Origin: Methanohalophilus sp. RSK
GTDB taxonomy: Archaea; Halobacteriota; Methanosarcinia; Methanosarcinales; Methanosarcinaceae
Length of the DNA: 64,000 nt
Assembly (NCBI RefSeq): GCF_003722075.1
Contig: NZ_RDSK01000012.1
Span: 1 to 64,000, forward strand
Reading direction: 5' to 3'
Shown: positions 27,793-42,760 of the stretch, one piece after another
Position numbering within the stretch: position 1 is the stretch's first letter
Layout: every line of letters begins with the position of its first letter
The notes under the pieces: model-generated
The model's input: the letters and a program-made list of their open reading frames with translations, nothing else
Told to the model about the DNA's origin: nothing
Databases searched by the model: none
Made by a program: the position numbers and the translations under genes

Positions 27793-27912
27793 GCCGGGGT
27801 GGCAGAGCGGACTAATCCAACGGCTTACAAAGTTGCCGCGGAGTCCAAACGCGGCAGGCTCGAGACCTGTTTCCCCTAACGGGGTGCTTGGGTTCGAATC
27901 CCAACCCCGGCG
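27793..27912 (+). tRNA. tRNA-Ser(CGA) with an extra ~34 nt between D-loop and anticodon arm
   Basis: Acceptor stem GCCGGGG/CCCCGGC with discriminator G, anticodon arm GCAGG-CTCGAGA-CCTGT (anticodon CGA), a long variable arm (CCCC-TAA-CGGGG) and T arm TTGGG-TTCGAAT-CCCAA make this a serine tRNA. The total is 120 nt rather than about 86. Removing about 34 nt after ACTAAT would restore the D stem GCA/TGC. The extra part forms a 7-bp hairpin (TGCCGCG/CGCGGCA) and partly repeats the D-loop region. No bulge-helix-bulge at the normal 37/38 site is present, so an unusual intron or an insertion is possible. Confidence 0.8.
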
Positions 27913-27936: not shown

Positions 27937-28066
27937 GAGACTGTCGGAAAAGTGGTGAAATCGAAACATTTCAAGCAATGGCTGAAAGTAAAACGCTATG
28001 CTGTGTTGCACTGTATTTAATGAATATGTTATAATTTTCTTGAATATGGGCTTTTCCGACAATCTC
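27937..28066. mobile_element. MITE-like element with 16-nt terminal inverted repeats
   Basis: 130 bp bounded by GAGACTGTCGGAAAAG and its inverted copy (one mismatch). The interior has no reading frame of note. It lies 25 bp after tRNA-Ser and before the accessory gene pair. It is a non-autonomous transposon remnant; the parent IS is not in the window. Confidence 0.6.
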
Positions 28067-42682: not shown

Positions 42683-42760
42683 GGGATAGTAGGGTAGCCT
42701 GGCCGATCCTCGAGCGTTTGGGACGCTTGGACTGCGGTTCAAATCCGCGCTATCCCACCA
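42683..42760 (+). tRNA. tRNA-Pro(TGG), CCA end encoded
   Basis: Acceptor GGGATAG/CTATCCC with discriminator A and encoded CCA; D arm GGGT/ATCC; anticodon arm GAGCG-TTTGGGA-CGCTT (anticodon TGG); T arm TGCGG-TTCAAAT-CCGCG. TTAGATATATCTA at about 42630 may serve as promoter. No intron. Confidence 0.93.

Follow-up and report, generated by a model that had tools for sequence, protein, structure and literature searches.

Non-canonical tRNA introns, lying outside position 37/38, have been described in the Crenarchaeota, Thaumarchaeota and Nanoarchaeota, where they occur in many tRNAs per genome (PMC4090602; PMC8450103). For the Euryarchaeota, two reviews published in 2014 give the rule that in species whose endonuclease is of the alpha4 or alpha2 type introns are single and sit at the canonical position (PMC4090602), with these enzymes cleaving canonical bulge-helix-bulge (BHB) motifs only (PMC4033280). 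The alpha'2 enzymes have likewise been described as limited to canonical motifs (PMC4033280; PMC12397907). Homodimeric enzymes have also been credited with cleavage of bulge-helix-loop (BHL)-like motifs (PMC8707768), and the Archaeoglobus fulgidus enzyme was reported to cleave a BHL at 37/38 in full-length pre-tRNA (PMC6379350). The only archaeon named as combining non-canonical introns with a homodimeric (alpha2) enzyme is Korarchaeum cryptofilum (PMC4033280), whose enzyme is said to bear a specific loop known from (alpha-beta)2 enzymes.

The window analysed here, a 64,000-nt stretch of DNA from Methanohalophilus sp. RSK, carries a tRNA-Ser(CGA) gene with 34 extra nucleotides, which in all likelihood form an intron at position 21/22, outside the canonical site, of a tRNA that is ordinary in other respects and probably functional, to be spliced by the endonuclease EndA and the ligase RtcB. 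Like the introns of the Crenarchaeota, Thaumarchaeota and Nanoarchaeota, it has a 4-bp central helix and a 3-nt bulge and lies in the D-arm; unlike them, it belongs to a euryarchaeal class, the Methanosarcinia, is accompanied by an enzyme of the alpha'2 layout, and is confined across that class to one tRNA and one position. In the same genome tRNA-Met (G000:C1:972-1081) and tRNA-Tyr (G000:C18:52537-52645) carry canonical introns, likewise one per tRNA and presumably removed by the same enzyme, but these interrupt the anticodon loop rather than the D-loop. Non-canonical tRNA introns are known as a kind; what would be new is a class-wide D-loop intron in Euryarchaeota with only an alpha'2-type endonuclease, breaking the rule of the 2014 reviews at one gene in a class made up of common methanogens and of archaea that oxidise methane or ethane anaerobically. 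No published report of a D-loop intron in tRNA-Ser(CGA) was found in a limited literature search that covered mostly open-access papers. The description of tRNAscan-SE 2.0 counts 673 non-canonical introns in 217 genomes and its models include the Euryarchaeota (PMC8450103), so it is quite possible that the intron is already listed in GtRNAdb.

The tRNA-Ser(CGA) gene and its extra nucleotides

The Rfam tRNA model (RF00005) matches the 120-nt gene exactly from end to end (38.5 bits, model positions 1-71 complete) and places the excess nucleotides in the D-arm (Table 1). The gene has the long V-arm, 7-bp acceptor stem and G73 of a tRNA-Ser, and the mature D-stem contains an A12-C23 mismatch that is common to the intronless orthologues. 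Compared with these 86-nt orthologues the excess is 34 nt lying between A21 and A22, in keeping with an earlier note made from the letters alone, which had described a tRNA-Ser(CGA) of 120 nt with about 34 extra nucleotides between the D-loop and the 3' strand of the D-stem. The anticodon loop, CTCGAGA, is uninterrupted, so that the insert is not a canonical 37/38 intron, and with only 34 nt inserted, no group I or group II catalytic core was found here among the Rfam matches, which comprised the tRNA alone.

Removal of the insert yields GCAGAGCGGACTAACGCGGCAGGCTCGAGA, which is identical to the intronless orthologues in most genomes of two sister families (f3 and f5); these read GGACTA followed directly by ACGC. 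In a DNA search of 60 related genomes the whole gene was recovered in many, the matches in f3 and f5 falling into two directly adjoining pieces (query 1-23 and 56-120). The identical 120 nt are present in two other genomes of the genus with close variants in many more, which disposes of the sequencing artefact that had been named as a possible refutation. Of the explanations first offered for the excess, it is the non-canonical intron that is well supported, the predicted 86-nt form matching natural tRNAs.

That the gene is disabled or a pseudogene, as was also suggested, is extremely unlikely. Its score is the lowest in the tRNA list of the genome and ARAGORN missed it when run on the window, while given the gene alone the program named it tRNA-Leu(tag) with an intron. 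However, the intronless orthologues score only about 47 bits, the exons are strongly conserved across genera, a promoter-like stretch upstream is conserved in the genus, and no other tRNA-Ser(CGA) was found in the genome. In this genome, which is 99.6% complete, the tRNA search lists 48 genes, with no second CGA anticodon among the others. A pattern for a CGA anticodon loop plus T-loop, run genome-wide, gave one tRNA match, the other match lying outside any listed tRNA. The list itself is incomplete, since a tRNA-Pro(TGG) gene with encoded CCA in the window (42683-42760; Rfam 44.3 bits) is missing from it.

Table 1. Features of the tRNA-Ser(CGA) locus in window coordinates; intron, splice motif and promoter features are predicted.
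Feature	Position	Strand	Basis or remark
Putative box A-like promoter element, around TTTTTAAGCCATAA	27754..27768	+	some 30 to 40 nt upstream of tRNA-Ser(CGA)
tRNA-Ser(CGA) gene including intron	27793..27912	+	120 nt; mature form 86 nt without CCA; RF00005 38.5 bits and orthologues
Exon 1, nt 1-21 (acceptor 5' strand, D-stem 5' strand, most of D-loop)	27793..27814	+	
Central helix H, 5' strand GGAC (G18, G19, A20, C20a)	27809..27812	+	pairs with 27843-27846 in 114/114 distinct relatives, Watson-Crick or G-U
5' bulge UAA, predicted cut between UA and A	27813..27815	+	3 nt in all relatives; in minimum-energy fold of junction region
Probable intron, 34 nt, position 21/22	27815..27848	+	absent in orthologues of two sister families; paired junctions
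Intron inner helix and loop, UCC...CGGC / GCCG...GGA	27816..27842	+	fold; first three pairs conserved
Central helix H, 3' strand GUCC	27843..27846	+	
3' bulge AAA (AUA in most relatives), predicted cut between AA and A	27847..27849	+	
Exon 2, nt 22-73 (D-stem 3' strand, anticodon arm, V-arm, T-arm, acceptor 3' strand, G73)	27849..27912	+	
Anticodon CGA	27861..27863	+	sequence; Rfam alignment

A putative splice motif at the exon-intron junctions

In the precursor the invariant G18-G19-A20-C20a would pair with a GUCC at the intron's 3' end, creating the 4-bp central helix (helix H) of a BHB or BHL motif. The alpha'2 EndA would then cut after the second base of a 3-nt bulge on both sides and RtcB would join the exons to give the 86-nt tRNA. 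We infer that the gene is transcribed, that cutting takes place at these exact bonds, and that the ligated tRNA-Ser(CGA) is charged with serine. As in archaeal BHB-type introns, removing the insert restores a standard stretch between D-arm and anticodon, and both a 4-bp junction helix and a 3-nt 5' bulge are present. When the junction region is folded locally, the minimum-energy structure, GGAC-UAA-UCC...GGA-GUCC, likewise consists of a 4-bp helix, a 3-nt 5' bulge and an inner helix.

The pairing is conserved among 114 distinct versions of the gene. All four pairs of helix H form without exception (GGAC/GUYY), with G-U replacing G-C at two of them, variation being restricted to the intron side because the tRNA itself dictates the exon side, G18-G19-A20-C20a. 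In the inner helix the first three pairs are formed in 99.7% of cells, compared with at most 72% when the partner is slid by one, and the seven pairs together in more than 99%; overall pairing drops from 83% to 46% once the 3' partners are shifted by one. In 2000 shuffles the observed inner-helix pairing was never equalled, while random 34-nt inserts gave the 4+3 pairing in 181 of 200,000. Double-sided changes are seen at h'1 to h'5: h'1 goes from U-A to C-G, h'2 and h'3 both go from C-G to U-A, and h'4 occurs as four different Watson-Crick pairs. This variation came from Methanotrichaceae and Methanolobus rows, and a 22-row alignment of order-level relatives, in which the seven pairs hardly vary, gave no covariation. 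The search patterns preset part of the helix bases; versions recovered by plain DNA similarity show the same pairing.

A 7-bp hairpin (27834-27840 with 27850-27856), pointed out in the earlier note, is present in this gene and appears in the minimum-energy fold of the naked 120-mer, from which the splice motif is absent. That it is a functional element, for example a switch acting on splicing, is nevertheless exceedingly improbable, since all seven pairs form in 14 of 106 distinct relatives, three or fewer form in 42 of the 106, and its covariation does not rise above shuffles. The observation that the insert looks like a partial repeat of the D-loop region, with GCGGACTAATCCAACGGC and GCGGAGTCCAAACGCGGC resembling each other, likewise stands for the window gene and a few relatives but fails for most. 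A slippage duplication of the D-loop region has virtually no chance of being the explanation, the likeness having gone from most Methanolobus, Argoarchaeum and Methanotrichaceae introns found at the same site, whereas position and pairing are conserved.

A further alternative, in which the insert is left unspliced and a tRNA-Ser with an enlarged D-arm works as it is, would agree with stable retention over the class and is very unlikely on other grounds. Insert length ranges from 17 to 47 nt among relatives and the loop sequence varies freely while the pairs of the splice motif stay, an almost identical tRNA lacks the insert in sister families, and in the unspliced form G18-G19 would be locked in helix H and could not pair with the T-loop. 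Removal of the insert as an intron, most likely by the usual archaeal splicing enzyme, is also in keeping with the bases left at the junction. If each bulge is cut between its second and third base, GGACNA ends up joined to A, and A21 and A22 are kept, in all versions (114 relatives). Two neighbouring splice registers were rejected, each altering base 21 or 22 in some relatives.

The 3' side of the motif reads AWA followed by YGC, where the sole candidate closing pairs are G15-C25 and C16-G24 with a fourth base bulged and there is no sequence variation to judge them by. The 3' outer helix may be weak (2 bp plus a 4-nt bulge) or replaced by an open loop. Since the 3' bulge has at best a weak closure, 'relaxed' (BHL-like) describes the motif better than strict BHB.

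Splicing enzymes and distribution in the Methanosarcinia

A single EndA gene was found in the genome (L096:1270-2331), coding for a protein of 353 aa with two PF01974 and two PF02778 domains, and a gene for RtcB ligase is also present. The layout predicted from the sequence is alpha'2, as there are two N-terminal and two catalytic domains and the A. fulgidus enzyme (2gjw, 1r0v) is among the closest solved relatives. All 13 relatives tested have the same layout, whether or not they carry the intron. As judged from gene content, the present case leans towards the view that homodimers cut relaxed motifs.

Among 238 genomes belonging to the class, about 125 have an insert at the same place, a figure made up of 82 found by a first pattern, 42 of 50 Methanotrichaceae found by a second, and one genome (G132) with a variant insert that the first pattern missed. 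Carriers include Methanohalophilus, Methanolobus, Methanococcoides, Methanomethylovorans, Methanosalsum, Methanohalobium, ANME-2 and Candidatus Argoarchaeum. The statement that such introns are rare in Euryarchaeota, though it agrees with the reviews, does not hold within the Methanosarcinia, where this one is common. One strict pattern applied to 393 genomes of the phylum found no insert outside the class. The intronless version is present in more than 40 genomes, almost all of f3 and f5. A different intronless tRNA-Ser(CGA), of the type GCCCAGGTAGTCTAGTGGTAAGGCG, is carried by the Methanosarcina-like genus g8 and by g2, g9, g10 and g11 (unrelated intronless loci L215, L221, L223, L227, L228, L231, L234, L236, L237 and L240), and since this gene is unrelated, tRNA-Ser(CGA) appears to have been replaced in g8, which is probably Methanosarcina, and in the neighbouring genera.

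In the Methanotrichaceae tRNA-Ser(CGA) contains a second, hairpin-forming T-loop insert, about 30 nt long, which is conserved over the family (L186, L187, L188, L189, L190, L191, L192, L194, L195 and others) and runs from GGGTTCAAA through ATGG...CCAGGAA to AATCCC, the cut sites between these three segments being approximate. The one doubly interrupted version tested, L186, scores below the Rfam tRNA cut-off. In one genome (G221; L178 / L195) the D-loop intron fits the pattern of the other families (TAATCCCGCCGC...GCGGGAGTCTAAA), yet the T-loop insert of the Methanotrichaceae is there too. In family f2, copies of tRNA-Ser(CGA) in three genomes (L062, L067 and L068 in G056, G052 and G040) are interrupted at differing places by a repeat-like stretch, TCGAAAATCG...CGATTTTCTTATC..CGGC...GCCTCAG.

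Taken together, we consider it somewhat more probable than its negation that the D-loop intron in tRNA-Ser(CGA) is ancestral and class-wide in the Methanosarcinia, that a second, T-loop intron was added in the Methanotrichaceae, that the D-loop intron is removed by an alpha'2-type endonuclease acting on a relaxed motif, and that it was later cleanly lost in two families and the gene replaced in the Methanosarcina-like genera. The natural intronless and doubly interrupted versions would allow a clean test of the cutting range of alpha'2 enzymes and of the gain and loss of tRNA introns. For annotation, tRNA-Ser(CGA) may look absent from such genomes, as the behaviour of ARAGORN and the Rfam score of the doubly interrupted version indicate.

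Flanking sequences and other tRNA genes

The box A-like stretch upstream of the gene is kept in the genus and partly beyond, and is likely to be a promoter element. Just 3' of tRNA-Ser(CGA) is an AT-rich stretch (window 27939-28065) with an 11-bp inverted repeat (TGTCGGAAAAG) on both sides. It could be a small mobile element, because the bases downstream of the gene vary between relatives of the same genus. Elsewhere in the genome three tRNA-Cys genes of identical sequence are found at the ends of contigs (G000:C3:51750-51821, C5:10-81 and C8:47-118), and are probably either a repeat or one copy common to broken contigs.
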